Below are positions 4,692-18,846 of a stretch of DNA of 33,292 nt, one piece after another; position 1 is the first letter of the stretch, and every line of letters starts with the position of its first letter. The notes under the pieces are model-generated. The model ran no database searches and was not told the origin of the DNA. It saw only the letters and a program-made list of their open reading frames with translations. The stretch comes from Candidatus Cloacimonadota bacterium (GTDB lineage Bacteria; Cloacimonadota; Cloacimonadia; Cloacimonadales; Cloacimonadaceae): positions 1-33,292 of the forward strand of contig JAKLEY010000005.1 in the NCBI GenBank assembly GCA_022711455.1. Reading direction: 5' to 3'. The translations under genes and the position numbers were made by a program.

Positions 4692-6014
4692 CTATAAGAT
4701 GTTGGGTGGCACACGTTTATACACATATCTGCGGTAGTGCAGATTCACCATGAAGGCATAGAGATGCATCAGGGGAGATTTCCGGGCGGCAGGGTGGAAG
4801 AGGGTTCGGCGCAGGATGCAGCGCAGGGAGAAGACCCTTTGATAGAGCTCCCAGAACAGCTCGGTGAGGCGCTGGGGGCTCATGTTTTCGGGTTTGAAGA
4901 CAGCCGTGGAGCCGTCGTAGAGCTTCCAATCCTCGGTCACTAACCTGCCCGCAGCCTTGAATTCGTCATAGAGTTCGGTGCCGGGGGTGGGAGTGAGGAT
5001 GTAAAAGCGCGGGATGGGAATTCTGCTTTTGTTGATAAAATCGTAAGTGGCACGGATGCTGGCTTCGGTATCCGAATCCAGCCCGATGATCATCTCGCTG
5101 CTGACCATGATCCCGGCGCGGGTGATGTTTGCGATCAGGCGTTCGTGATCATCCACGCGCAACCAGGATTTATTGAGCTTATCCAGTCCTCCCTGGGTGA
5201 TGCTCTCGATCCCGAAGCTCATGATCTGGGCTCCGGAACGCACTAACTGTTTTAAGAGCTGGGTTTTATCCCCGATCTTGAGCGCGCATTGGGTTCCCCA
5301 TTTCATTTTCAGAGGCTCGATCTCCTTCACGAGTTCGAGCAGATATTTCTCGTTGGAGACCAGATTGTCATCGATCAGATAAAAGCGTTTGAAACCCAGA
5401 TCCCGCACCGCCTTGATATCCCGGATGACCTCTGCCACGGGACGGAAGATATAGCGTCCCTTATAGATACAGGCCACGGAACAGAAGCTGCAGGAATTGG
5501 GACATCCCCTCCCGGCCTGGACCGGAAGCATGTTTCCGATGGGTTTGGAGGTTAGGAGTTCATAGCGGGGCACCGGCAGACCCTCCAGTTTATCCAGAGG
5601 ATGGTCGTAAACGGGCTGCAGCTTTCCGGTGCGCTCAAAATCTTGCAGCATCAGCGGATAGGAGATCTCGGCATCGCCCACCAACACGGAATCCACGTGT
5701 TTGAGAGCTTCGGAAACAGTCATGGACGCCATGTAACCACCCATCACAACAGTCTTTCCGCGTTTGCGAAATTCATCCGCGAGCTCCATTCCCCGAAACA
5801 TGGCATAGCCCATGGTTCCGATCCCGATCAGCTCAGCATCGGTCTCAAGATCAATCTCATCAACCACTTCCAGCTTCATCTCCACCTCCCAGTGCGGAGG
5901 CGTGAGCGCTGCCAGGAGCGGAAACACGAGCCCCGGCAGATTGATCAGCTTCTGTTTGAGAGGTTTGCCATCAGGGCCGTATTGCGAGGGCTGGATGAAG
6001 AGTATTTTAGGCAT
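4692..6014 (-). CDS. B12-binding-type radical SAM protein (first of two)
   Basis: 440 residues from the ATG of MPKILFIQPSQYG, chosen because GGAGGAAAT sits directly before it. Residues ~1-130 form a cobalamin-binding-like Rossmann domain ('LIGIGTMGYAMFRGMELADE', 'KTVVMGGYMAS'), but the DxHxxG base-off motif is not apparent, so cobalamin binding is uncertain. The radical SAM core follows, with the cluster motif C171-P-N-S-C175-S-F-C178. Further core elements are 'FKRFYLIDDNLVSN', 'MSFGIESITQGGLDKLNK' and 'FYILTPTPGTELYDEF'. The C-terminus is basic. It should use SAM and a [4Fe-4S] cluster for a radical reaction, perhaps methylation or ring chemistry; substrate unknown. It follows the other radical SAM gene in the same direction, separated by ~150 bp of hairpin elements, and may belong to the same operon. 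Confidence 0.9.
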   Translation of the reverse strand: MPKILFIQPSQYGPDGKPLKQKLINLPGLVFPLLAALTPPHWEVEMKLEVVDEIDLETDAELIGIGTMGYAMFRGMELADEFRKRGKTVVMGGYMASMTVSEALKHVDSVLVGDAEISYPLMLQDFERTGKLQPVYDHPLDKLEGLPVPRYELLTSKPIGNMLPVQAGRGCPNSCSFCSVACIYKGRYIFRPVAEVIRDIKAVRDLGFKRFYLIDDNLVSNEKYLLELVKEIEPLKMKWGTQCALKIGDKTQLLKQLVRSGAQIMSFGIESITQGGLDKLNKSWLRVDDHERLIANITRAGIMVSSEMIIGLDSDTEASIRATYDFINKSRIPIPRFYILTPTPGTELYDEFKAAGRLVTEDWKLYDGSTAVFKPENMSPQRLTELFWELYQRVFSLRCILRRTLFHPAARKSPLMHLYAFMVNLHYRRYVYKRVPPNIL

Positions 6015-6023
6015 ATTTCCTCC

Positions 6024-6169
6024 GTAGAGCAGCATGCCGATGCTGCTGAACTCTTATGTAGAGCAGTATACCGATGCTGCTGAACTGTGATCTATAGCAG
6101 GATCGGCATCCTGCTCTACCGATCGGCATCCTGGGTTTTCTGTTCAGCAGGATCAGCATCCTGCTCTAC
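6024..6169. repeat. Cluster of four GTAGAGCAG-type hairpin elements
   Basis: Four short imperfect palindromes, two on each strand: 6024-6051 and 6058-6085 forward, 6094-6119 and 6143-6169 reverse, plus a truncated piece at 6121-6133. Each reads GTAGAGCAG, a stem half, a loop of about 4 bases (GCCG or a variant), the other stem half and usually CTGAA. Stems differ in a compensating way: CAGCAT pairs with ATGCTG in one copy, CAGGAT with ATCCTG in others. The leftmost copy directly precedes the ribosome binding site of one radical SAM gene, and the rightmost supplies the TAG stop of the other. Confidence 0.85.
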
Positions 6170-7509
6170 CGGTAACGGCGAACATATTGCGTTTGCACAC
6201 TGTAAACTCCCCTGAGCATCTTCCAGAGCATGCGGGGAGGATAGTTCCGCAGATAAGCCAGCACAAATTTGGGTTGAAACAAAACAGCACGGTAGACCCT
6301 CAGAATGGACAGGTAATAATCCCGCAAACTGAGTTTGCCAGGGCGGATGGAGACATGCGCGAGGTCCCACTTGTGAAAATCCGAGCGGGGGAAGAGCAAA
6401 ACGCTGTCATCAACCGTAAATTCGGTTCCGGGCAGAGGTGTCAGCGGCTGCAAGTTTACATAATGTATTCCCAGTTTGAGCAGGCTTTGCTTACAACGCT
6501 CAAAATCGCCCCTGTCCCAATCCGGAGATACAATTATAGTGGCATAGCAATCGATCCCGTATTTATTGAGGACCCGCATAGCGGCCTCATTGGTGCCCGC
6601 GTCCGTGTGTTTATTGTAAAGGTTTAGTTCGTTATCAGAAAAGGATTCCAGACCCACTATGACGGTTTTTAGGCCGATGGATGCAAAATCCTGCATCAGC
6701 TCCGGATTGGCTGCGATGAAATCCGCCCGGCCATAGAGCAGATAGCTTTTGTGCAGACCCGCTTTGCGGTTGGCACGGATGAAATCCTCCACCCGTTTGG
6801 GACTGGAGAGGAAATCGTCATCCACGATATAGACGTCCCTTTCTTCGATCAGGATCAGCTCGCGGATCACGTCTTCCAGGGGACGTTCGTGATAATGATC
6901 GCGGGTGATGGAGCGGCAAAAACAGAAGCTGCAGCGGTAGGGACAGCCAAAGGAAGTCTTGATCAGGGCCACTTTGTCGTGGAAGATATAGAAATAGCGC
7001 TTGCGGTATCTAGCTGTCAGCTTGCGGTTGGGGAGCGGGAAGAAGAAGTCGAAGGGGGGAAGTTCCGCTTGGGATGATGCGCTCCAAACGCCGGGTGGAA
7101 GGTCTCCGTTGCCATTAAGATAGGCCAGCAGTTTGGGGAAAACCGTGGTGGCATTACGCACTACTCTGAAATCGATAAAGGGATCGGAAAGATCCTCCGG
7201 GCAGACCTCACAGTGGACTCCTCCCACGATCGTAACTATATGGGGGTCAAATCCTTTGGCCATCTTGCAGACGCGCTTCAGCTCCGGCACGTTGGTGATG
7301 TAACCGGTCACGCAGATGACGTCCGGACGCTCCCTTTGCAGAAAGTATCCGATCCCCTGCCGTTCGAGGATTAGATCGATAATGACCGGCGTGTCGTCGG
7401 GGCTCACCAGGCTTGCAAGAACCTCCAGCTCAAGGGGTTCGACCAGCATCACATGCTGCAGTCCGATGGTTTCGGGAGAGGGGCGGGGGCGGAGGAAGAG
7501 GATTTTCAT
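6166..7509 (-). CDS. B12-binding-type radical SAM protein (second of two)
   Basis: 447 residues from the ATG of MKILFLRPRPSPE, preceded by AAGGAG; this start overlaps the previous gene's stop in an ATGA. Longer upstream frame is antisense-like and lies inside the FemAB-like gene. N-terminal Rossmann-like domain with 'PLELEVLASLV', 'RPDVICVTGYITN' and 'IVTIVGGVHCEVCPED', as in B12-dependent radical SAM enzymes. The cluster motif is C189-P-Y-R-C193-S-F-C196, followed by 'DVYIVDDDFLSSPKRVEDF', 'LKTVIVGLESFSDNELNLYNK' and 'VNLQPLTPLPGTEF'. The stop codon TAG belongs to the adjacent hairpin repeat, so the C-terminal end may have been altered by repeat insertion. Reaction and substrate unknown; its coupling to the acyltransferase genes suggests it acts on their product or precursor. 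Confidence 0.9.
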   Translation of the reverse strand: MKILFLRPRPSPETIGLQHVMLVEPLELEVLASLVSPDDTPVIIDLILERQGIGYFLQRERPDVICVTGYITNVPELKRVCKMAKGFDPHIVTIVGGVHCEVCPEDLSDPFIDFRVVRNATTVFPKLLAYLNGNGDLPPGVWSASSQAELPPFDFFFPLPNRKLTARYRKRYFYIFHDKVALIKTSFGCPYRCSFCFCRSITRDHYHERPLEDVIRELILIEERDVYIVDDDFLSSPKRVEDFIRANRKAGLHKSYLLYGRADFIAANPELMQDFASIGLKTVIVGLESFSDNELNLYNKHTDAGTNEAAMRVLNKYGIDCYATIIVSPDWDRGDFERCKQSLLKLGIHYVNLQPLTPLPGTEFTVDDSVLLFPRSDFHKWDLAHVSIRPGKLSLRDYYLSILRVYRAVLFQPKFVLAYLRNYPPRMLWKMLRGVYSVQTQYVRRYR

Positions 7510-8507
7510 CTGTTCTCCTTGAAGGGGTGGGGACTTTCGAACTTTGCGGAGTATTCCAGCAGGGGTCTTGCCAGGCATAAAAGCTTGCGGATCAAGGGAT
7601 TGGAATGGTAACCCAAGAGCCATTTGGGGGAGAGCTGTGCGCCCAGACGCTGTTTGGGGATCTCTGCGGTCTGGCCGAAGTCCAGCTGGCTGAATCCACC
7701 CTCAATACCCTGTCGGAGAATGGCATAGAGCAGATTCAGATAGCTGTGGTGGCTATGGTTCAAGCTCTGCTCGTAGCCACCCAGGAAGAAGAACAGCCTA
7801 TCCCCCTGAGCCAGAGTGATATACCAGCCGACTAAGATCTTGCCATCATAGTACGCGCTCAATTGAAAAGCGGGAGGCAGCGCCCGGAAGAAGCTGAGAG
7901 AGAGGCTTTCCAGCTTGCCTTTGCTGCGGGCGAGCACTTCCAGATAGAGGCGATACATTTCGTCATCGAAGCCTGAGCAATCACTTGTCCGCAAAGTTAA
8001 TCCCTGAAAGGCTTTCAAGGTGAGATGCAACCTGCGTTTGTAATCCGAGCGCAGGCAGTTCTGATAGTCTTCCCAGCTTTGAAACCGGTTCTGAAAGAGC
8101 AGCGTGGGCAGGGTTTTCCCGCTCATGACCCCGGGGATATGGGCTTGGGAATCCAGATTCAGCCAGACCAAGAAGCCCTTTTCATGAGGCTTGAGCAGTT
8201 CCAGCAGCTGAGGCAGAAGCGCTTCGGGACCGAGCATTCCGGAAGCCGAAACGGAGCAGGGAATGCCGGCGATATTCATTTGCAGCGGGATCTTCAGGAA
8301 AGCATAGGTGAAAAGATCCAGCCTGAGGCTGTAGACCACTATTCCGGCGCGCAGGATATCTTCCTCATAGGCTAGGTAATAGCGTTGCTTGCAGGGGTTG
8401 TGAGTTTCCGTGTGGAGCAGAAACTCACGCTGCTGAAAATAGCTGGAAGCCAGGCTGTCCCAGGCTTCAGGAAGCATAGAGGCGGAGCTGAAGCGTTTCA
8501 CTTGCAT
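7506..8507 (-). CDS. FemAB/BioF2-like GNAT acyltransferase
   Basis: 333 residues. The C-terminal half matches the GNAT fold of the FemAB/CelD/BioF2-like group: 'RSDYKRRLHLTLKAFQGLTLR', 'FQLSAYYDGKILVGWYITLAQGDRLFFFLGGYEQSLNHSHHSYLNLLYAILRQGIEGGFSQLDFGQTAEIPKQRLG'-like order of strands, where the 'Y..LY..I..GI..G...LDFG' segment is characteristic. Such proteins transfer aminoacyl or acyl groups to amines, for example in peptidoglycan bridge or exopolysaccharide building. Substrate here is unknown. It begins 3 bp after the preceding GNAT gene's stop and ends in a 4-base ATGA overlap with the radical SAM gene, so all are translated from one message. No signal peptide: cytoplasmic. Confidence 0.82.
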   Translation of the reverse strand: MQVKRFSSASMLPEAWDSLASSYFQQREFLLHTETHNPCKQRYYLAYEEDILRAGIVVYSLRLDLFTYAFLKIPLQMNIAGIPCSVSASGMLGPEALLPQLLELLKPHEKGFLVWLNLDSQAHIPGVMSGKTLPTLLFQNRFQSWEDYQNCLRSDYKRRLHLTLKAFQGLTLRTSDCSGFDDEMYRLYLEVLARSKGKLESLSLSFFRALPPAFQLSAYYDGKILVGWYITLAQGDRLFFFLGGYEQSLNHSHHSYLNLLYAILRQGIEGGFSQLDFGQTAEIPKQRLGAQLSPKWLLGYHSNPLIRKLLCLARPLLEYSAKFESPHPFKENR

Positions 8508-8510
8508 GGC

Positions 8511-9548
8511 TCAGAGCCCGGTCTCATACACTGCCAGATAGCGCCAGGGTTCCGGAATAATGCCGTAAACCCTCTGGTAGTAACGCTTGGTCATGATAAT
8601 ACTGGCGCGGTTCTGCTCAAAGATGAAACCGCCTTCCCCCCAAACGCAGCCGAGAGCCTCAACCTGAACCAGCATCTCCAGAAAGAGCGCGAGGGTCACC
8701 AAACCCCTGTGTTCCGGTAAAACCGCGATCTCAGCATAACGATAGCTGTGATAGTGGTCTTTGCTCCCCTCGTTAAGATCCGGCATCCAATAGAGATAGC
8801 CCACTGCTTTGCCCTCGACTTCCGCAAAGAGCAGGTTTCTCGGTTGAAACTGCTCGCCCATGCTCTCGAAAAGCTCCAGATCGTCTTCCGCTCTGCGCCG
8901 GGACCAGTAAGGATGATCGGTGAAACAGGCATTGTTGAGCTCCGTGTAGAGCGCGATCTCTTCGGCAAATCTACCTTGGTCCAGAATGCGTACGCTGATC
9001 CCCTCCAGATCTGTCTGTTCACGGGTCTTTTTACCCCAGGCATAGAATTCCGGCATATGGAATCTGTAGGTGAGCATCCGCTTCTCGCTCAAGCCTTTAA
9101 AGTAGCTTGGATAATAGGGCGGACTGTGGGGCAGGCCAAAAGGAGGAACTTCCTCAAAGGGCTGGAGCAGAAAGCCCGCGCCGTAGTTCAGATGTCCGTT
9201 TAGCCCTGCCACCAGTTTGCGGCAATCCGGAAAGAGCTTGCGCGCGGTGGAAATGATGAGCTCACAAACACCCTGCAGACCAGGCAGAGCCTCGAACCAG
9301 GCTATCTGGATGTGATCCGGCAAATTGGGATCGCGGACAAAGGCAAAGCGTCCCGACACTTTGGCACCCTCAAGGATCAGATAGGGCAGCACGGAAGCGT
9401 GACTGCAAAAGGCAGAGCTGCCTTCCACCATGGCCCGCAGCAAGGGGTCCTCTGTTTTGGGATGCTGGGGATAGGGGGTGTAGACCTCGGTTTCAAGCTC
9501 AAAGAATTGTTCCCGATCGCTTGAATTAAGAACTGGTTTCAGCTCCAC
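8511..9548 (-). CDS. GNAT-family acyltransferase-like protein, copy 2
   Basis: 345 residues with a GTG start; GAGGG lies 6 bases upstream and no other start exists before residue 39. It overlaps the end of its paralogue by 10 bases. The N-terminal part has 'LVAGLNGHLNYGAGFLLQPF' and 'PPFGLPHSPPYYPSYFKGL', a segment typical of an uncharacterised ~370-residue GNAT family (core G-x-N-x-x-x-N-x-x-x-G-x-L...P-Y/H-x-P-x-Y-Y). The C-terminal part holds a GNAT core: 'LLFAEVEGKAVGYLYWMPDL' then 'YAEIAVLPEHRGLVTLALFLEML', equivalent to the acetyl-CoA pyrophosphate loop, and 'EGGFIFEQNRASIIMTKRYY'. The loop (EHRGLVTL) is not the standard R/Q-x-x-G-x-G/A, so the donor may differ or activity may be weak. 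Cytoplasmic. Confidence 0.82.
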   Translation of the reverse strand: MELKPVLNSSDREQFFELETEVYTPYPQHPKTEDPLLRAMVEGSSAFCSHASVLPYLILEGAKVSGRFAFVRDPNLPDHIQIAWFEALPGLQGVCELIISTARKLFPDCRKLVAGLNGHLNYGAGFLLQPFEEVPPFGLPHSPPYYPSYFKGLSEKRMLTYRFHMPEFYAWGKKTREQTDLEGISVRILDQGRFAEEIALYTELNNACFTDHPYWSRRRAEDDLELFESMGEQFQPRNLLFAEVEGKAVGYLYWMPDLNEGSKDHYHSYRYAEIAVLPEHRGLVTLALFLEMLVQVEALGCVWGEGGFIFEQNRASIIMTKRYYQRVYGIIPEPWRYLAVYETGL

Positions 9549-10633
9549 AGTTTACCCTCGAAGATACCATAGTGGCGATAGGGCTGCATTTTGGCTCCGG
9601 TTGCCCTTTCGATCAGCCTTTGGGTCATGTTTTGGCTGGGCAGATTGGCCTCGAAGATAAAGCCGCCTTCTCCAGTTTGATATCCGGCTTTGTGCACCAA
9701 TTCGGCCCCTTGGCAGATCAGAGCGGAGAGGACGTGACTGTTCCGGAATTGCGGCAGCACAGCGATCTGGGTGAAGCGATAGCTTGTGATCGGGTCACGG
9801 AGCTTATGGCGCAGCAATTCCACCAGGCCCAGGGGCCGGGAACCCTTCACCAGTTCATTGAAATCGGGATACCAAAGCAGGAAACCCACCGGCTTGCCAC
9901 CGACTTCGGCAAAGAGCAGGTAATCCCCCCGCAGCAAGTGACGGAAGGGGTAGAAGAGCTCCCAGTCTTCTTCCGGACTGCGCGGAGCCCAGAACGGGTG
10001 CTCCTTGAAACTGGCGTTGTTGAGCTTGGTATAGAGCTCCAATTCCTCTTTCAATCTGCTTTTATCCAGTTTGCGGATTGTGCAGCCGCTGGCCCGGAGC
10101 ACGCTTTCCTGCCTTTGGCAGTATTGCCAAAAAGGCTGGTGAGGAAAGCGCCAGGAAGACATGCGCTGGGTTTCCAGTCCCCGGAAATAATCCGGATACC
10201 AGGGTGCGGTGTAGGGTAAGCCGAAGACCGGAGGCTCGTCGAAGCGATCCAGCAGGAAGCCCGCGCTGTAGTTCAGATGTCCGTTCAAGCCCACTAAAAA
10301 GCTGTTGGCACCAGGCTCTGCCTTGCGGGCTTCGGCTTTGATGAGTTCCAGAGGATCGTCCAGTCCTTGCACAGCCTCAAAGAAAGCTATCATCAGCTGC
10401 TCCGGCAATCTGCGATCCCGGATCAGGGCAAAGCGAGCCACAGCCTTCCTGTCCTTCAGGATCAGATAGGCTTTAACGGTGGCGTGGACCCGAAAAGCTG
10501 CAGAACCCTGAATCACAAGCCGGGCAACGCTTTCATCCGTGGCACGGTAAGAGGGATTTCCCCGGTAGACGGTTTTCGGAACTGCAAAAAAAGCATGAAG
10601 TTGTTTCGCGGTCTTGACCGGGAGGATTTTCAC
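9539..10633 (-). CDS. GNAT-family acyltransferase-like protein, copy 1
   Basis: 364 residues with a GTG start that shares a 4-base GTGA overlap with the stop of the decarboxylase-like gene; no strong ribosome site, so translation is probably coupled. It is a clear paralogue of the next gene. Shared blocks include 'GLNGHLNYSAGFLLDRFDEP', 'FGLPYTAPWYPDYF', 'LYTKLNNASFKEHPFW', 'LLFAEVGGKPVGFLLWYPD', 'QIAVLPQFRNSHVLSALI' and 'GGFIFEANLPSQNMTQR'. The acetyl-CoA loop region (PQFRNSHVL) lacks the canonical glycines. An insertion (~270-290) relative to copy 2 carries 'LGLVELLRHKLRDPITSY'. The pair may form a heterodimer or act on successive intermediates. Substrate unknown. Confidence 0.82.
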   Translation of the reverse strand: MKILPVKTAKQLHAFFAVPKTVYRGNPSYRATDESVARLVIQGSAAFRVHATVKAYLILKDRKAVARFALIRDRRLPEQLMIAFFEAVQGLDDPLELIKAEARKAEPGANSFLVGLNGHLNYSAGFLLDRFDEPPVFGLPYTAPWYPDYFRGLETQRMSSWRFPHQPFWQYCQRQESVLRASGCTIRKLDKSRLKEELELYTKLNNASFKEHPFWAPRSPEEDWELFYPFRHLLRGDYLLFAEVGGKPVGFLLWYPDFNELVKGSRPLGLVELLRHKLRDPITSYRFTQIAVLPQFRNSHVLSALICQGAELVHKAGYQTGEGGFIFEANLPSQNMTQRLIERATGAKMQPYRHYGIFEGKLWS

Positions 10634-11793
10634 GTGAAGAATTCCCTGGCCGGAGCAAAGCCCAGAAAGTGGGTGTAGGACGAGGCACAGTAGGATCCGG
10701 CATAGCCCAGGATCACGGTGTCACCGGGCTTGACAGGGGGCAGGAGGATGTCCCTGGCCAAAAAGTCACGCGAGTAGGTCGAACAGCCATAGATGGAGCT
10801 AAGTATCTTTTCCTCATTGGCTTCCGCTTCATTCTGAGCTAAGATCGCCACCGGGTGAAAAGCTTCATCGGGATAGAAAAGCGGACGGGGAAACTGGGCG
10901 CAGGAGGCGTTAACCCCGATCAGTTGGTGCTTTCCCCTCGTTTTGAGATCGACCACTTCACAGACAAAATAGCCTGCCTCCGCTCCAATGATCCTGCCCG
11001 GCTCCAGGATCAGTCTGATCTGAGCTCCCAATTTTAGAGAAAGCTGCCGCATCAGAGCCGAAACCTGAGCGCCATAGTCCTGCAGGTCAAGCTGCTGCGA
11101 GGGATCTTCGCTGAGTCCGAAACCGCCCCCGAAATCCAGCACTTGCAGGTTTGGAAACCACTCTGCCAGTTCACTCAGCTTCCGGTAGCAATCCATGAAA
11201 TAGCTGAGTTGGAGGATATTGGTGCCCACGTAACTATGCAGACCTCTGATCCGCGGATCGCCTTTGAGTTGCTGTAATTCCTCCCGCGTGAAACCCAGAC
11301 GGCTGTCCTTGCCGATGAAATATCCCCCCAGAGTCTGCTTAGGGCTCACCTGATCCCCGATATTGCATCTGAGACAGGCTCCCTGCAGGGGAAAGAGCCG
11401 GCTCCAAAGCTCCAGCTGGCCAACTGAATCCAGCACCACCAGACAGCCCGCGCCTTCTGCCTGCTTCATTTTGGCTTCATCCATGGCAGAGGCCGCAAAG
11501 ACGATCTCTTCCCCTTTGAATCCGAGGCTGAGGACCTGCTCCAGATGGGGGATGGAGTTCACGAAGACCTTGAGACCGCAGTCTTTGAGGATGCGGATGA
11601 ATTGGGGATTGGAATTGGCCATCAGGGCAAAGTGGATGGCTTTGGGTTCATAGGGAAGAGCTGTGAATTGCAGGCAATGCTCCCTGATCGCGGCACAGTC
11701 ATAGAGATAGAATGGACTGCCCTGAATCGCTTTGATCTCGCTGATCCTGGTTTTCAGGGCTTCAGGGATCTGAAGTTCAAATGTGTTGTTCAA
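10630..11793 (-). CDS. Fold-type III PLP decarboxylase homologue lacking the PLP lysine
   Basis: 387 residues from a TTG codon in a 4-base TTGA overlap with the upstream stop; AGGCAGG lies before it. The order of motifs is that of the ornithine/diaminopimelate decarboxylase family (PLP alanine-racemase-fold barrel, then beta domain). 'AIHFALMANSNPQFIRILKD' (52-71) corresponds to the Y-A-V-K-A-N-S-N block, and residue 58 is Met where the Schiff-base Lys should be. Present are 'GLHSYVGTN' (184-192), 'LDFGGGFG' (219-226), 'EPGR' (264-267) and 'YAGSY' (364-368). The C-terminal G-P-x-C-x-S-x-D catalytic segment reads G336-C-S-T-Y-S-R-D, so the catalytic Cys position is Thr. It is probably not a normal decarboxylase: either a non-catalytic partner or a repurposed enzyme. 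Fold call firm, function unknown. Confidence 0.85.
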   Translation of the reverse strand: MNNTFELQIPEALKTRISEIKAIQGSPFYLYDCAAIREHCLQFTALPYEPKAIHFALMANSNPQFIRILKDCGLKVFVNSIPHLEQVLSLGFKGEEIVFAASAMDEAKMKQAEGAGCLVVLDSVGQLELWSRLFPLQGACLRCNIGDQVSPKQTLGGYFIGKDSRLGFTREELQQLKGDPRIRGLHSYVGTNILQLSYFMDCYRKLSELAEWFPNLQVLDFGGGFGLSEDPSQQLDLQDYGAQVSALMRQLSLKLGAQIRLILEPGRIIGAEAGYFVCEVVDLKTRGKHQLIGVNASCAQFPRPLFYPDEAFHPVAILAQNEAEANEEKILSSIYGCSTYSRDFLARDILLPPVKPGDTVILGYAGSYCASSYTHFLGFAPAREFFT

Positions 11794-12491
11794 AATCTAA
11801 TGTCCTGCCTTGCGAGTTTATTCAAGAATTCGAATATTGGTTTGCTAAGCTCGGGATCCGCAATGCGTTCCGGATGCCACTGGATGCCCAGGACCATCTG
11901 CGGGGATTCATATTCGAGCGCTTCCACCATCCCGTCTTCAGCTTGGGCAACGATGCGAAGTCCCTTGCCCAGGAACCGCGGATCGACTGCCTGATGGTGG
12001 TTCGAATTCACCCTTATCCGTTCTCTGCCAAAGATCTGCGGCAGCCATCTGCCACCCAGGATCCGAACCTCGTGGCTGCGTTCCCCGAAATGGGCGTCGT
12101 ATTCCCTGATGTGCTGGATCAGCTTGCCCCCGAAATAGATATTGAGCAGCTGCATCCCCGCGCAGATGCCCAGCACCGGTTTATGCAGCTCCAGAGCAGT
12201 TTCCAGGAGGGCATAATCTCCCTCCCAGCGGCGCTGATGCGCCTCTTCAGTGAGCGGATGCGCTTCCTCTCCGTAGAGCGAGGGGGGATAGTCCATCCCG
12301 CCAATGATGATCAGGGCTCCCACCTTGTTCAGATAGGCCCGCAGACAATCCCGATCCGTCATACAAGGAATGAGGAGGGGCAGCGCGCCGTTGTTATAGA
12401 CTGCATCCACATATTTATCCCGCACGTGGAACTGGTGATAGCTCCCCAACTGCATGTAGTTCATACTGATACCGATCACGGGTCGATCCAT
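11790..12491 (-). CDS. Class-I glutamine amidotransferase-like hydrolase (peptidase C26 / PuuD family)
   Basis: 233 residues, close to the usual ~250 of gamma-glutamyl-gamma-aminobutyrate hydrolases. The nucleophile elbow is 'PVLGICAGMQLLN' with Cys110; the partner residues are His206 and Glu208 in 'LGIQWHPE'. Also present are 'GALIIIGGMDYPPSLYG' and 'VNSNHHQAVD', both typical of the family. Known members hydrolyse gamma-glutamyl amides (PuuD in putrescine breakdown); others act as synthetases or transferases. AGAGG precedes the ATG. It is the first gene of the operon, overlapping the next by 4 bases, so it probably releases glutamate or trims a gamma-glutamyl intermediate made by other operon members. 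The precise substrate is not readable, so I give no symbol. Confidence 0.88.
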   Translation of the reverse strand: MDRPVIGISMNYMQLGSYHQFHVRDKYVDAVYNNGALPLLIPCMTDRDCLRAYLNKVGALIIIGGMDYPPSLYGEEAHPLTEEAHQRRWEGDYALLETALELHKPVLGICAGMQLLNIYFGGKLIQHIREYDAHFGERSHEVRILGGRWLPQIFGRERIRVNSNHHQAVDPRFLGKGLRIVAQAEDGMVEALEYESPQMVLGIQWHPERIADPELSKPIFEFLNKLARQDIRF

Positions 12492-12805: not shown

Positions 12806-12899
12806 TAGCGCTTGCCAGCGATCCCGTTGAAAACAAGGACTATTCCGAGATATGGAATGATTCTTGTATAAAACTTATGAAATAATAAAGGGAGGAGTC

Positions 12900-15185
12900 A
12901 TGCGTGTTCTGACTTTTACCAAACTTTTGAAATTCTTGGTTCCGGGCTTGATGCTCCTTGGGCTGGTCTTGCCATTGACGGCTGCTTTCGTGCAACCGCA
13001 GGAAGCACTCAGGGCTGCCCAGACCTGGTTGAGCTACAATCTGGAGACCGGCAGGAGCCTCGCTCCGGCCGAACAGATCTCGCGCTTTAGCGGTGAAACT
13101 TTTATCGCCTGTGCCTCTGAATATGACGAAGCCGCAGGTAATCTCCCCGGGATCTACCTGATAAAATATACCGATGGCAGCTATGTATTGCTCTCCGCGG
13201 ATGACAATTCCCTGCCCGTGCTGGCATATTCCACCGAACCGCGTGGAGCCACCGGCTCCTATCCTCCGGACTTTATCGCCTGGGTGGCAAACTATGAGAA
13301 ACAGGTCTCGGCTATCCTGCAAAACCGGACTGAACTGCCTCAATACCGGCAGCAATGGAGCGAACTCCTCAGCGGTGTGGTCAATACGGACAACCGGACA
13401 GACCGCTCAGTGCAGCCTTTGTTGGCTCTGACCTGGGATCAGGGTTGGCCTTACAACGAGCTTTGTCCTGCTGATGCCGCGGGTCCCGGTGGTCACGTCT
13501 ATGCCGGCTGCGTTGCCACTGCGATGGGGATGGTGATGAAATATTGGAATCATCCCACCACAGGAGTCGGGAGTAACAACTACTACGCCTATGGCTACGG
13601 CTATCAAAGCGCAAATTTCGGCGCCACTACCTACCAGTGGGATCTGATGCCAAATTCTGTGGGTTATTCAAATCTCCCGGTCGCGACCCTGCTCTATCAC
13701 TGCGGAGTCGCGGTGGATATGGGCTATGCTCCGGATGGATCAGGCGCTCAGAGCTATGACGCGGCAGCTGCCATGGTCAACAACTTCCGCTATCCCAACG
13801 CGGTGATCTATGACAAGTCGAGCTATTCGGACGCGACCTGGAACTCCATGCTGCAAGCGCAGATAGATAACGGCAGCCCCATGTATTACAGTGGTTCCGG
13901 TTCGGGTGGCGGACACGCCTTTGTGATCGATGGCTATGACACAGCGAACTACTTTCACTTCAATTTTGGTTGGAGCGGCTCTGCCAACGGCTATTTTTAC
14001 GTGAGCAATATCAATCCCGGCGGATCAGACTTCAACGACTGGCAGTCGGCGATCATGAACAGCATTCCCCAGAATTACAGCATCGCCAATACCCGGATCA
14101 AGCTGCGTTCCGATGCCGGCAGCGTCGGCAATCCCATCAATCTGACACTCAGCACCAATCCCGTTTTGGGCACCTGGAACGTCAATCACTTCCAGTTTGA
14201 ACTGCTTTACGATGCTCAGTTCATGAGTTTCAACGGGGCAAATCTCACCAATACTCTCGCCGCAGGCGGGACGGTGAACGTCACGGAAGCTGAACCGGGA
14301 CTCCTTTCCGTGGTCTGGAACAGCACCGGAAAGATCATCGGCGGAGGAGACCTGATTAATTTGTCCTTTACGCCAAATGACGCGGGTGAATTCCTCTTTG
14401 ACCTCGGCGGAATGATGTACAACAGCAGTCCGGTGACCAATGTTCAGTATCTTATGGCAACGGTGACGGCTCCGGTCGCTGAGCTCTCGGAGAGCCATAT
14501 AAGCATGCAGAATGTGATGCATCTGGGCTACAACCAGGTGGGTTCGACGGAGATCCGCACGACCTATCTCCTGCCTTCCTGGGACGTCACGCATTACCAG
14601 TTTAACCTCGGCTACGACCCTTCCAAGCTGGAGTTTGTGGGAGTCGACGCGGTCGGTACCCTGAGCGACGGCTTCAACCCGGTGGCTACTCTCGTCAGCC
14701 CTGGCACCGTGGCAGTTTCATGTGACGCGAGCCCTGAATACACGGGTTCCGGATGTTTGCTCAAAGCCAGGTTCCGGGCGATCGGTAACGGTCCGTCTCT
14801 GGTTGTCACGCAGGTGACGCCCTCGAATTTCTACTTTAATAACACTTTGATCAGCTCTGTCGGATCGGCGAACTTCATCCTCTCCGCAGCTTCGGACGCG
14901 GAAGACGTCGTTGCGGTTCAGCCCGCATTGTCTGTCTCGCCCAATCCCATACGCGACCACGCCAGGATCAGTCTCTCCACAAAGGCTGTGGCTAATACCC
15001 GGCTCAGGATCTATAACGTTCGGGGACAATTGGTTTGCGTTCTGGATTTGGATAGGGATCAGACAGAGCTTGCCTGGGATGCCAGAGACTTTTCGGGCAG
15101 AGCTCTCGCTTCAGGTATCTACTTCCTAAGCTGGGAGCAGGGCGCATTCAAGGGTGCAGTCAAGCTCCTAATCTTCAAACAGTAA
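12900..15185 (+). CDS. Secreted C10-family cysteine peptidase with cohesin-like domains and T9SS sorting domain
   Basis: 761 residues from the ATG of MRVLTFTKLL, preceded by GGGAGGAG; an in-frame ATG 12 codons earlier has no such site. Signal peptide to ~30. Residues ~30-145 resemble the Spi/streptopain propeptide ('ALRAAQTWLSYN', 'GIYLIKYTDGSYVLLSADD'). The catalytic domain (~170-390) has the C10 nucleophile in 'GCVATAMGMVMKYW' (Cys204) and the base in 'GGGHAFVIDGYD' (His339), followed by 'FNFGWSG'. Two cohesin-like beta-sandwiches follow (~393-545 and ~545-670, sharing 'LSTNPVLGTWNVNHFQFELLYD' and 'YLLPSWDVTHYQFNLGYD'-type segments). The sorting domain starts at 'LSVSPNPIRDHARISL' and ends 'KGAVKLLIFKQ'. 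Role: extracellular proteolysis, with the sandwiches giving possible protein or cell-surface binding. Confidence 0.93.
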   Translation: MRVLTFTKLLKFLVPGLMLLGLVLPLTAAFVQPQEALRAAQTWLSYNLETGRSLAPAEQISRFSGETFIACASEYDEAAGNLPGIYLIKYTDGSYVLLSADDNSLPVLAYSTEPRGATGSYPPDFIAWVANYEKQVSAILQNRTELPQYRQQWSELLSGVVNTDNRTDRSVQPLLALTWDQGWPYNELCPADAAGPGGHVYAGCVATAMGMVMKYWNHPTTGVGSNNYYAYGYGYQSANFGATTYQWDLMPNSVGYSNLPVATLLYHCGVAVDMGYAPDGSGAQSYDAAAAMVNNFRYPNAVIYDKSSYSDATWNSMLQAQIDNGSPMYYSGSGSGGGHAFVIDGYDTANYFHFNFGWSGSANGYFYVSNINPGGSDFNDWQSAIMNSIPQNYSIANTRIKLRSDAGSVGNPINLTLSTNPVLGTWNVNHFQFELLYDAQFMSFNGANLTNTLAAGGTVNVTEAEPGLLSVVWNSTGKIIGGGDLINLSFTPNDAGEFLFDLGGMMYNSSPVTNVQYLMATVTAPVAELSESHISMQNVMHLGYNQVGSTEIRTTYLLPSWDVTHYQFNLGYDPSKLEFVGVDAVGTLSDGFNPVATLVSPGTVAVSCDASPEYTGSGCLLKARFRAIGNGPSLVVTQVTPSNFYFNNTLISSVGSANFILSAASDAEDVVAVQPALSVSPNPIRDHARISLSTKAVANTRLRIYNVRGQLVCVLDLDRDQTELAWDARDFSGRALASGIYFLSWEQGAFKGAVKLLIFKQ

Positions 15186-15536: not shown

Positions 15537-15607
15537 GATAAGTTGTGTGGGACTGAGATTGTAACATGAAAACAGTATCGCAGCCCTGCTGTATTCAAGG
15601 AGATATT

Positions 15608-16246
15608 ATGAATTGCCCGAAATGTAAGACAGTGAACAGCGATGGAATGCTTTTTTGCCGGAAATGCGGCACGCCATTGAATCCGCAATACAAGGTCTGC
15701 CCCAACGGCCACAATTATCCCTCTGATTTGGATCTGTGCCCGCACTGCCCCACCAATCGTGCTGCGGAAGCCTACGATGACACTGATGGTCTGGATAAGA
15801 CCCGGATCGACAGCAGCGCGCCGCAAATGGCAGGTGGAGACAAGGCCGGCTGGACGATCGGCAGAGTGGAAGCCGACCGGGATAAGACCGTGATCATGAA
15901 TCCGCCCAAAACATCGGTTCCCTCCGCGACTGAGCAGCCTGCGATTCGCAAGCTTACTGGCTGGTTGGTGACCTTTGATCTGCAAGCCAGCGGGGTGGAC
16001 TTCCGGCTCTATATGGGCAGGCATCTGATCGGGCGCGGAGCCAGATGTGACATCGTTTTACAGGTTCCGGGAGTCTCAGAGGAGCATGCAGTACTCTTGA
16101 ACCGCGACGGCAAATTCATATTACAGGACAATCTCTCTGCCAACGGTACTTACGTGAACGGCGAAGCCATTGATGACAAACGAGTTCTGCGGGAAAACGA
16201 CGTGATCACCATTGCCGGGATCAAGCTCAAGCTGAAGCTGGTATAG
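15608..16246 (+). CDS. Zinc-ribbon / FHA domain protein
   Basis: 212 residues from the ATG of MNCPKCKTVN, chosen because AAGGAG lies 6 bases upstream. Two zinc-binding motifs open the protein: C3-x2-C6...C17-x2-C20, and C31-x3-H35...C44-x2-C47. A linker (~52-115) has two short threonine sites, 'DKTRI' (T65) and 'DKTVI' (T94). Residues ~118-212 are a forkhead-associated domain with 'LIGRGARCDIVLQ' (G142, R143), 'VSEEHAVL' (S157, H160) and 'SANGTYVNG' (N179), the residues that grip phosphothreonine peptides. Cytoplasmic, no membrane segment. It is first of a five-gene operon with the VWA/FHA protein and PP2C phosphatase, so it is probably a phosphorylation-responsive adaptor. Kinase not in the window. 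Confidence 0.92.
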   Translation: MNCPKCKTVNSDGMLFCRKCGTPLNPQYKVCPNGHNYPSDLDLCPHCPTNRAAEAYDDTDGLDKTRIDSSAPQMAGGDKAGWTIGRVEADRDKTVIMNPPKTSVPSATEQPAIRKLTGWLVTFDLQASGVDFRLYMGRHLIGRGARCDIVLQVPGVSEEHAVLLNRDGKFILQDNLSANGTYVNGEAIDDKRVLRENDVITIAGIKLKLKLV

Positions 16247-16254
16247 GGGAGAAA

Positions 16255-17721
16255 ATGATGTTTAAAAAGCTATTGATCCTGGTTTTACTGCTGCCTGTCC
16301 TGCTGACGGGAGCTGAACTGCGGCATCTTTATACGGATGCTGAAGCCTATCCCTTGATGAAGTCTACAGTTCTGGCTCTGGATAACGCGGGGAAGCCGCT
16401 TTCCGGCTTGACTGCCTCCAATTTTGAGCTCAGTTTTGGGGGGCAAGCGGTGGATTCGCTTTCGGTGAGAAGCTTTGAGGAGACGGGGCAAGCCTTTAGC
16501 CTGATGCTCTGCATAGACGTATCCAATTCCATGAAAGGCGAGCCGCTGAGCAGCGTGAAGAAAGCGCTGCGTGATCTGGTGGAAGCCAAACGCTCCAACG
16601 ATGAATACGCCCTGGCAGTCTATGCCGGCACCTGGGTCATGCTCACGGATTTCACCCCCGAAAAAGAGCTGCTGCACAGCCGGATCAACGAACTGGCAGT
16701 GCGTTCCGGTTCCACGGCAATGTATTACAGCGCTTACAAGAGCCTGGAACAGATCAAACGCACGGCCCGCAATCCCTTCAGAGCCCTGATCCTCTTTGGT
16801 GACGGCAAGGACGAAAACCAGACCGATGCCTATACCGAGAAGGACGTGATCAGCTATTCCCGGGAACAGCAGATCCCCATATTTACTGTGGGCTACACCG
16901 CAGTGGACAAGCAGTATCTGCAAGCGCTGGAACATCTTGCGGGCGTTTGTGGCGGAACCTACGGCATGGCAGCCAATTCTGGTGAATTGAGTGCTGTCTT
17001 TGCAGGAATCTCCGCTCAATTTGTACAATCCAGCGTGCTCAGCTATCTCCCGATCGGCCTGGCAGGAGACGGAGCCCTGCACAAGCTTTCACTGATCCTG
17101 AACAGCAGTTCGGGCAATTCCACCACCAGTGCCGAGCTCAAGATCCCCTCCGGAAGACCCGCGCATCAAGGGGTCAATGTGAAGCTGAATTCAGCCCGAA
17201 AATACTGGAAATATGCCATTTTAATCCTATTTGCAGGTCTTGTGGTCCTGGGAATCTGGCTCAAGATCGTCTACTGGCCCCGTAAAAAAGCTCAAGCAAG
17301 TCCTCCCCCTCCCCCGATCAAGCCTGATCTTGTCGCAGTCAAACCTAAAGCACCTGCTCCAATAGCCCCGGAACGTGAACGCACCATGATCCTCACCCCG
17401 GGAACCAAACCTTCAGTGCAGCAGACAGCAGCCGGACTGAGGATGGAGATCCTCATCGGACCGGATGCCGGAAAGGTCTTCAACATCAATGCCGGAGGAG
17501 CCTCGATCGGCAGAGCGAGTGACAATCAGATTGTATTGACGGATGACACTGTTTCCGGGCATCATGCCAAAATCTACTTTGCCAATGGGCAGTTTATCGT
17601 GGAAGAAGTGCGCGCCACCAATGGCATCTTTATCAATGGGATAAAGACTTCCCGGGCCGCGCTGAGCGGAAACACGACCTTCAAATTCGGAGCCTCGGAA
17701 GGGGCCTTCACTCCTTATTAA
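16255..17721 (+). CDS. Membrane VWA-domain protein with cytoplasmic FHA domain
   Basis: 488 residues with tandem ATG starts after GGGGAGAAA. Signal peptide 1-19, a periplasmic von Willebrand A domain at ~80-260 with MIDAS-like D88-V-S-N-S92, T154 and D183 ('FGDGKDE'), one transmembrane helix (~318-341), a proline-rich linker (346-372), and a C-terminal FHA domain (~395-488) with 'SIGRASDNQIVLTD', 'VSGHHAKIYF' and 'ATNGIFING'. With an N-terminal signal, topology is periplasmic VWA and cytoplasmic FHA. A threonine site 'ERTMI' (T377) precedes the FHA domain. It would couple an envelope ligand or metal-dependent interaction to phosphothreonine recognition inside. Eight bases after the FHA gene and 12 before the phosphatase: one operon. 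Confidence 0.92.
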   Translation: MMFKKLLILVLLLPVLLTGAELRHLYTDAEAYPLMKSTVLALDNAGKPLSGLTASNFELSFGGQAVDSLSVRSFEETGQAFSLMLCIDVSNSMKGEPLSSVKKALRDLVEAKRSNDEYALAVYAGTWVMLTDFTPEKELLHSRINELAVRSGSTAMYYSAYKSLEQIKRTARNPFRALILFGDGKDENQTDAYTEKDVISYSREQQIPIFTVGYTAVDKQYLQALEHLAGVCGGTYGMAANSGELSAVFAGISAQFVQSSVLSYLPIGLAGDGALHKLSLILNSSSGNSTTSAELKIPSGRPAHQGVNVKLNSARKYWKYAILILFAGLVVLGIWLKIVYWPRKKAQASPPPPPIKPDLVAVKPKAPAPIAPERERTMILTPGTKPSVQQTAAGLRMEILIGPDAGKVFNINAGGASIGRASDNQIVLTDDTVSGHHAKIYFANGQFIVEEVRATNGIFINGIKTSRAALSGNTTFKFGASEGAFTPY

Positions 17722-17733
17722 ATTCGGGGTTTT

Positions 17734-18846
17734 ATGGAAGAGCAAACAGTCCATCTGCCAATGACTTACCAGATCGGGAACAAATCCGACACCGGGAAAG
17801 TGCGCAAGCAAAACCAGGACTATTTTGGCAAATACGGCGGCAGCTACGGAGATCTGCTCATCGTCTGTGACGGCATGGGCGGATATTTTGGAGGAGAGCT
17901 GGCAGCGCAGATCGCGGTTGAAAGCATTTCCGCTCACTTTACCGATCTTGGCGAGGATTACGATCCTGAACTGGTCTTGAAACAAAGCCTGCTCTATGCA
18001 CAGAACAGGATCGAAGACTATAAGATAGATCATCCGGAAGTCTCAGACATGGGCACCACAGCGGTGGTCCTGCTGCTGCATGAGGGGCAGTTCTGGTATG
18101 CCTGGGTGGGAGACAGCCGCATCTACCTGGCACGTGAAGGCAATATCCAGCGGCTGAGCACGGATCACTCCTATGTTCAGGATCTGATCGAGCAAGGCTT
18201 GATCGAGCCTTCAGAGGCAGCCACCCATCCACAGCGGAACATTATCACCCGGGCTTTGGGCACTCAGAATTTTGAGGCGGAGATCCGGGGACCCTTCAAG
18301 CTGGTGCCGGATGACCGTATACTTTTGTGCAGCGATGGTTTGCATGGCTATTTCAGCGACAGTGAATTGCTGCGTTTTCTGCAGCTGGAAGCTCAGGAAG
18401 CCTGCAACCAACTGGTAGATGAAGCCAATGCCAGAGGCGGCGCGGATAATATCACTCTCCAGATCGTGCGGGCTGATCACATCATGAGTTCCTCGCCCGA
18501 AACCGGTTTGAAGAAATACAATGCCATCACCCTCGCTCTGATGGGGCTCACTGTCCTGCTTTTCACGGTTGCCATGATCTCCGGGATCGTGATCTATTCC
18601 AAAAGTTTGTCCACCCGGGAACAACTGAGCCTTTCCGCCAAGAATAAGCACGTGGCAGATTCTCTCAAAGCGGCCCGGGCAGAAGCAGAAAAGTTCAAGC
18701 AGGATGAAGCTCAGGCACTCAAAGAAAGAGCACAGGATGAAGCTCTTGCTAAACGCCGGGCTCTGCGACTCAAACGGGAAGCCGAAGAAAGAGCCAGGAT
18801 CGCGGACAGCCTCAAAAAAGCCTCTGAAGCAGGCGGAACGGAATAG
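17734..18846 (+). CDS. Membrane-anchored PP2C-family Ser/Thr phosphatase
   Basis: 370 residues. The PP2C domain (~12-248) keeps the metal and catalytic motifs: 'VRKQNQDYF' (R24, D29), 'CDGMGG' (45-50), 'MGTTAVV' (106-112), 'VGDSRIYL' (125-132), 'CSDGLHGY' (199-206) and 'GGADNITL' (235-242). It should remove phosphate from Ser/Thr using Mn2+ or Mg2+. Unlike simple PrpC/Stp enzymes it continues into a transmembrane helix (~264-288) and a charged Ala/Lys/Glu-rich coiled coil (~300-365), which on a simple reading lies in the periplasm. It probably reverses phosphorylation of the two FHA proteins upstream. Three bases separate it from the next gene. Catalytic call firm, topology inferred. Confidence 0.94.
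   Translation: MEEQTVHLPMTYQIGNKSDTGKVRKQNQDYFGKYGGSYGDLLIVCDGMGGYFGGELAAQIAVESISAHFTDLGEDYDPELVLKQSLLYAQNRIEDYKIDHPEVSDMGTTAVVLLLHEGQFWYAWVGDSRIYLAREGNIQRLSTDHSYVQDLIEQGLIEPSEAATHPQRNIITRALGTQNFEAEIRGPFKLVPDDRILLCSDGLHGYFSDSELLRFLQLEAQEACNQLVDEANARGGADNITLQIVRADHIMSSSPETGLKKYNAITLALMGLTVLLFTVAMISGIVIYSKSLSTREQLSLSAKNKHVADSLKAARAEAEKFKQDEAQALKERAQDEALAKRRALRLKREAEERARIADSLKKASEAGGTE

Follow-up and report, generated by a model that had tools for sequence, protein, structure and literature searches.

PLP enzymes are considered to be defined by the lysine that forms the internal aldimine. In ODC, a fold-type III enzyme like LysA, this is Lys69, and the catalytic Cys360 is contributed by the second subunit. 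The antizyme inhibitor is a precedent for a non-enzymatic member of the ODC fold; it keeps Lys69 and loses pocket residues, the reverse of the pattern described below. A PLP-binding barrel with no known catalysis is found in the PLP homeostasis protein YggS/PLPHP, which is single-domain and retains its natural Lys. Its K36A variant still binds PLP, with 124 nM against 1.3 nM, and PLP is non-covalent in crystals of this variant, other lysines being able to take part in solution (PMC9601805). Thus, the loss of the lysine lowers the PLP affinity of a PLP-binding barrel but need not abolish it. We searched the literature for a natural fold-III clade without the internal-aldimine lysine and found no report of one; nor did the search return a description of the protein clade or of the gene cassette that are presented here.

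The window, i.e. the whole stretch of DNA that was analysed, comprises 33,292 nucleotides of a Candidatus Cloacimonadota genome. An earlier note, made from the sequence of the window, had read one of its open reading frames as a PLP decarboxylase homologue with replaced catalytic residues. The gene, here named DEC (Table 1), lies on the minus strand, and stops interrupt the plus-strand reading of the same interval. Homology to the fold-type III PLP-dependent decarboxylases is borne out by two Pfam domains that score above their gathering cut-offs, Orn_Arg_deC_N (PF02784, 77.3 bits, cut-off 23.4) and Orn_DAP_Arg_deC (PF00278, 50.1 bits, cut-off 23). An AlphaFold model built with ten clade sequences (pLDDT 85, pTM 0.85), which replaced a model from three sequences with pLDDT 54, predicts an alanine-racemase-type barrel followed by a C-terminal sheet domain. 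The best PDB matches of this model in Foldseek are LysA and Lys/Orn decarboxylases (TM 0.77-0.82). The superposition proposed in the earlier note thus holds at the level of the fold. The model is weakest at residues 305-310 and 339-341, the remodelled loops.

Relatives of DEC were found with a three-sequence alignment as the query of genome contigs; the same kind of scan with DEC as a single protein found none. The alignment-based scan of GTDB genomes identified ten loci in MAGs labelled Cloacimonadota, Bacteroidales/Bacteroidetes/Paludibacter, Krumholzibacteriia, Nitrospirae and unassigned bacteria. Genome searches around these loci added further homologues, one of them in a genome (G129) that shares its phylum with the Krumholzibacteriia genome. 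The resulting set has 17 distinct intact proteins from separate genomes (the window protein and 16 homologues) that share 39-77% pairwise identity and all carry Met at the position of the PLP lysine. In a tree of these 17 and 24 other fold-III sequences, in which the stems are long, the Met proteins form a clade of their own (support 100/100, stem of 1.63 changes per column), which settles the question for which the earlier note had suggested a phylogeny. Among 125 genomes of the window's phylum two close relatives were found, both with Met, and a sample of 396 genomes from the phylum to which another genome (G131) belongs yielded no further member, so the family is rare and patchy in its distribution.

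These data bear directly on the simplest explanation of an aberrant active site, namely an alignment error, a frameshift or a decaying pseudogene. A broken copy with stops does occur in one genome (G203). Against this stand 17 intact copies with the same residue, located in operons of overlapping genes, and a clean bimodal gap in profile scores, with 493-662 bits for the Met clade and at most 191 bits for all the rest. Given a single clade with Met throughout and Lys in every sequence outside it, we regard this explanation as refuted, its residual probability being negligible.

Residue equivalences to ODC were obtained through the alignment chain window - L028 - ODC, and the list of ODC pocket residues stabilising PLP was taken from PMC5518511. 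In an alignment with solved LysA structures, the block FALMANSN of DEC falls on F/YAxKAxSN, which confirms the claim that an ATG-encoded Met58 replaces the Schiff-base lysine. The proposed Thr at the catalytic Cys position was likewise found: Thr339 is encoded by ACC (10777-10779), and its column, equivalent to ODC Cys360, has Thr in 17 of 17 clade sequences and Cys in 24 of 24 Lys-bearing ones. The adjacent Tyr340 is also invariant in the clade (17/17), its column being occupied by Glu/Asp in 21 Lys-bearing sequences and by Met in three. Besides Phe77, His83, Tyr188 and Tyr340, a further clade-specific swap was found at Ser297.

Table 1. Positions in the window of DEC, its changed and retained active-site residues, and the other cassette genes (counts: Met clade, 17 sequences; Lys-bearing fold-III sequences, 24)
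Feature	Position	Strand	Remarks
DEC, Lys-free fold-III (LysA/ODC-like) protein	10630..11793	-	387 aa, TTG start; ORF, Pfam, homologues and tree
Met58, codon ATG	11620..11622	-	PLP Schiff-base lysine position, ODC Lys69; Met 17/17 vs Lys 24/24
Phe77	11563..11565	-	ODC Asp88 position; Phe 17/17 vs Asp/Glu 24/24
His83	11545..11547	-	ODC Glu94 position; His 17/17 vs Glu 24/24
Tyr188	11230..11232	-	second His of HxHxG motif; Tyr 17/17 vs His 23/24
Thr339-Tyr340	10774..10779	-	ODC Cys360-Asp361 (LysA Cys-Glu) position, in motif G[CS]STYS[RQ]D
GGG222-224 phosphate loop, retained	11122..11130	-	ODC G235-237; 17/17
EPGR264-267, retained	10993..11004	-	pyridine-N Glu264 (ODC E274) and phosphate Arg267 (ODC R277); both 17/17
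Tyr368, retained	10690..10692	-	ODC Tyr389; 17/17
GNAT1, YghO-type acyltransferase homologue	9539..10633	-	overlaps DEC by 4 bases
GNAT2, second copy of GNAT1 family	8511..9548	-	Cloacimonadota copies and L012
Acetyltransf_6 protein ('FEM')	7506..8507	-	conserved cassette member
B12-binding radical SAM protein, HpnR-like	6166..7623	-	CxxxCxxC
Radical SAM protein	4692..6035	-	440-447 aa, 'MPKILFIQPxQY', CxxxCxxC; last cassette gene

The GGG loop, EPGR and YAGSY, which the earlier note had listed as retained, are all present in DEC. Arg142 (ODC R154) and His186 (ODC H197) are kept in all 17 sequences, and Thr191 occupies the position of ODC S200. The dimer residues of ODC are represented by Asp343 (D364) and by a basic residue, Arg165 (K169). 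The equivalent of ODC Asp332 is Asn in 16 of the 17 clade sequences, and also in five of the 24 Lys-bearing ones. DEC has in common with LysA (structures 1knw, 2yxx and 2p3e) the two-domain fold (Foldseek TM about 0.8), GGG, EPGR, Arg303/Tyr307 and the final Tyr. It differs from LysA by the exchanges of Lys for Met, Asp for Phe, Glu for His and Cys-Glu for Thr-Tyr, and by a two-residue insert (P308-D309) that is absent from all 24 Lys-bearing sequences, to which it is 17-29% identical. With ODC it shares fold type III and the residues around the PLP ring and phosphate; unlike ODC and the antizyme inhibitor, DEC is accompanied by no antizyme system.

Among the invariant positions of the 17 clade sequences we found no replacement lysine at the PLP site. 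The only invariant lysine, Lys284, belongs to the C-terminal sheet domain and is present in 20 of the 24 Lys-bearing homologues as well, and Lys51 occurs in just 14 of the 17 clade members; a takeover by another lysine was therefore rejected. No clade member retains Lys at the site, which supports the loss of the Schiff-base lysine, and as judged from the alignment DEC has lost the ability to form an internal aldimine. Since only 21% of the columns are invariant in the Met clade, the change of each swapped site to an invariant new residue is not drift, and because the residues that hold the ring and the phosphate of PLP have been preserved at the same time, DEC has been re-tooled and has not decayed. 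By these sequence comparisons, DEC is a conserved re-tooled protein, neither a sequencing slip nor a dying gene. Its domains are laid out like those of a PLP protein. It is nevertheless not classifiable as a PLP decarboxylase, because two defining residues of this class, the Schiff-base Lys and the catalytic Cys, were tested and are absent. With the Lys, Asp, Glu and Cys of one site gone from every member and the residues around the ring and phosphate invariant, the clade makes it directly testable in nature which function requires the lysine.

DEC is also unlikely to be the true LysA of its genome. The best NCBIfam model is lysA (TIGR01048), at 176.3 bits far under its cut-off of 297.9, and five of nine genomes with the Met protein also encode a LysA above this cut-off, so that in these five the Met protein is not needed as LysA. 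Similarity-based annotation as LysA would probably credit carrier genomes wrongly with a decarboxylase. The genome of the window (88% complete) has no LysA above the TIGR01048 cut-off. It encodes a DEC paralogue of 449 aa (L002, 1174-2523) that keeps the Lys and overlaps an ATP-grasp-like gene; as the genome is without a LysA above the model cut-off, this paralogue may represent a different decarboxylase for amino acids in the lineage.

DEC heads a conserved cassette in the order DEC - GNAT1 - (GNAT2) - Acetyltransf_6 - B12 radical SAM - radical SAM. All five core genes are found in this order in 14 of the 17 loci. The other three are a locus that locally lacks the last radical SAM gene (L068), one that runs off its contig (L072) and one with DEC and GNAT1 only (L070). 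GNAT1 comes after DEC in every intact locus examined, and several cassettes have extra B12 radical-SAM genes. In two Bacteroidales-group loci (L068, 8768-9439; L069, 7983-8651) a protein of ~220 aa with an N-terminal signal-like stretch is encoded between DEC and GNAT1. The co-occurrence of DEC with the Acetyltransf_6 gene is significant both in the window's phylum, where the two are found in the same three of 125 genomes (Fisher p 3e-6), and in the Bacteroidales group, where five of the eight genomes with the Acetyltransf_6 gene have DEC (Fisher p 3e-8 in 344 genomes, computed with seven DEC carriers, one of them a decayed copy). The Acetyltransf_6 cassette gene was not found in the genome that harbours a decayed copy with two stops (L071, contig G203:C477, match at G203:C477:2387-3028).

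GNAT1 is homologous to E. coli YghO over its full length (hhalign probability 98.5%, E 3e-15, 336 columns). The DEC-linked GNATs nevertheless form a clade apart from the YghO-type ones (100/100), with the common signature GxNGHxNYxAG, and in most cassettes they have lost the glycine of the RxxGxA-type CoA loop. The loop is kept in the locus that branches deepest within the Met clade (L070, 7917-11309), where DEC and GNAT1 stand alone and are followed by a SPASM radical-SAM gene. PDB profile searches with GNAT1 and with the Acetyltransf_6 protein gave no convincing structure. YghO presumably belongs to the bacterial ceramide synthase (bCerS) family. In Caulobacter, bCerS is an acyltransferase of the cytoplasm that associates with the membrane and acts on a long-chain base (PMC11087976), and a Black Sea study noted Spt-like genes in Cloacimonadota that have neither bCerS nor CerR nearby (PMC11334938). 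Three cassettes without DEC (L087-L089) have an ordinary YghO-type protein in the place of GNAT1. One of them (L087, 1610-5860) comprises genes for a PSD-like decarboxylase, a FeeM-like N-acyl amino acid synthase and the YghO-type protein; in L088 and L089 a SPASM-type radical SAM protein and an MMPL-like transporter are added. DEC and GNAT1 thus act as a single module that is exchangeable for YghO plus other enzymes.

Transporters in or beside the cassettes point to the nature of the product. The cassette of L012 includes an HpnN-like RND transporter (313 bits, under the curated HpnN cut-off of 752), and MMPL-type transporters adjoin the cassette in L014, L073 and the DEC-less L088. This neighbourhood suggests that the product is a lipid. 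The B12 radical-SAM protein of the window matches HpnR at 165.2 bits, which is under the curated cut-off of 650. With radical SAM and B12 radical SAM proteins, two acyltransferase folds and sometimes an RND exporter, the cassette is probably responsible for a membrane lipid of uncultured bacteria that has not been described.

The functional reading of DEC draws on its sequence and gene context. The interpretation that we favour, with a probability of roughly 40%, is that DEC is a neofunctionalised, Lys-free fold-type III protein whose non-covalent ligand is a B6 vitamer (PLP, PMP or a PLP-amine adduct) and which serves as the partner of GNAT1 in an amino-lipid step. Two subunits would dimerise and thereby create a composite site, as they do in LysA and ODC, and PLP would be held by the GGG loop, Arg267, Tyr368, Glu264 and His186. 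An amine substrate could then react directly with the free aldehyde to give the external aldimine, or an adduct formed beforehand could be bound, with His83, Tyr188, Thr339 and Tyr340 in place of the Lys-Asp-Glu-Cys machinery. GNAT1 would receive the amine and acylate it, and the resulting lipid would be the substrate of the radical-SAM enzymes and the RND exporter. YggS offers a comparison for a barrel that binds PLP with no known catalysis, although it has no such cassette. Some features count against this reading: the phosphate pocket could hold another phosphorylated compound, the Asp332 equivalent is mostly Asn, and the CoA loop of GNAT1 is mostly lost. A wider proposal is more tentative, namely that the family needs no internal aldimine for its B6-dependent or B6-pocket amino-lipid chemistry and operates together with a YghO-type N-acyltransferase and two radical-SAM enzymes in a lipid pathway so far undescribed.

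A close rival, possible though somewhat doubtful, is that DEC is a non-catalytic pseudoenzyme that serves the GNAT acyltransferase as a structural or allosteric subunit, comparable to the antizyme inhibitor for ODC, and whose pocket is there for fold stability or sensing. It accounts for the loss of the Schiff-base Lys together with the equivalents of Asp88, Glu94, Cys360 and Asp361, and for the fact that DEC and GNAT1 are an adjacent, usually overlapping and co-varying pair, an ordinary YghO-type GNAT being found where DEC is absent. As the CoA loop of GNAT1 is lost in most cassettes, both proteins may even be structural. However, the lost sites of a scaffold should drift, and here each has become one invariant residue in all 17 sequences, with the residues for the PLP ring and phosphate invariant as well. 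The earlier note had left open a pseudoenzyme, a small-molecule-binding subunit or a new chemistry; the invariant replacements and the intact PLP ring and phosphate pocket weigh against a drifting pseudoenzyme and in favour of a selected ligand-binding or catalytic site.

A new chemistry on a non-B6 ligand, such as a phosphorylated lipid precursor or a nucleotide, is less probable. Met58, Phe77, His83, Tyr188, Thr339 and Tyr340 would then make up a different active site, in agreement with the hydrophobic (Met, Phe) and hydroxyl or imidazole groups that now stand where charged catalytic ones were, and with the lipid-type genes nearby; yet Glu264, the partner of the pyridine nitrogen, and the ring-stacking His186 are kept in 17 of 17 sequences, and a ligand without a pyridine ring would not obviously require them. 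We consider it improbable that DEC is a PLP enzyme with a lysine from another chain or a partner protein, or one using PMP chemistry with His83 as the base. The sugar dehydratase ColD, in which His stands for Lys, provides a comparison for the latter, and His83 is indeed invariant at the Glu94 position, but within DEC itself only Lys284 of the C-terminal sheet is an invariant lysine.

Upstream of DEC, and sharing 4 bases with its start, lies a gene for a class-I glutamine amidotransferase-like peptidase C26 of the gamma-glutamyl hydrolase type (11790-12491, minus strand; PF07722, 186 bits); it was rejected as a cassette member, as it is absent from the cassettes of other genomes. Divergent from the cassette is the gene of a secreted C10-family peptidase with an I69 inhibitor pro-domain, cohesin domains and a type IX secretion sorting tail (12864-15185, plus strand). 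It is followed by a row of genes on the same strand (15566-18846) for zinc-ribbon/FHA, VWA-FHA and PP2C phosphatase proteins, then a small protein and an ABC ATPase.
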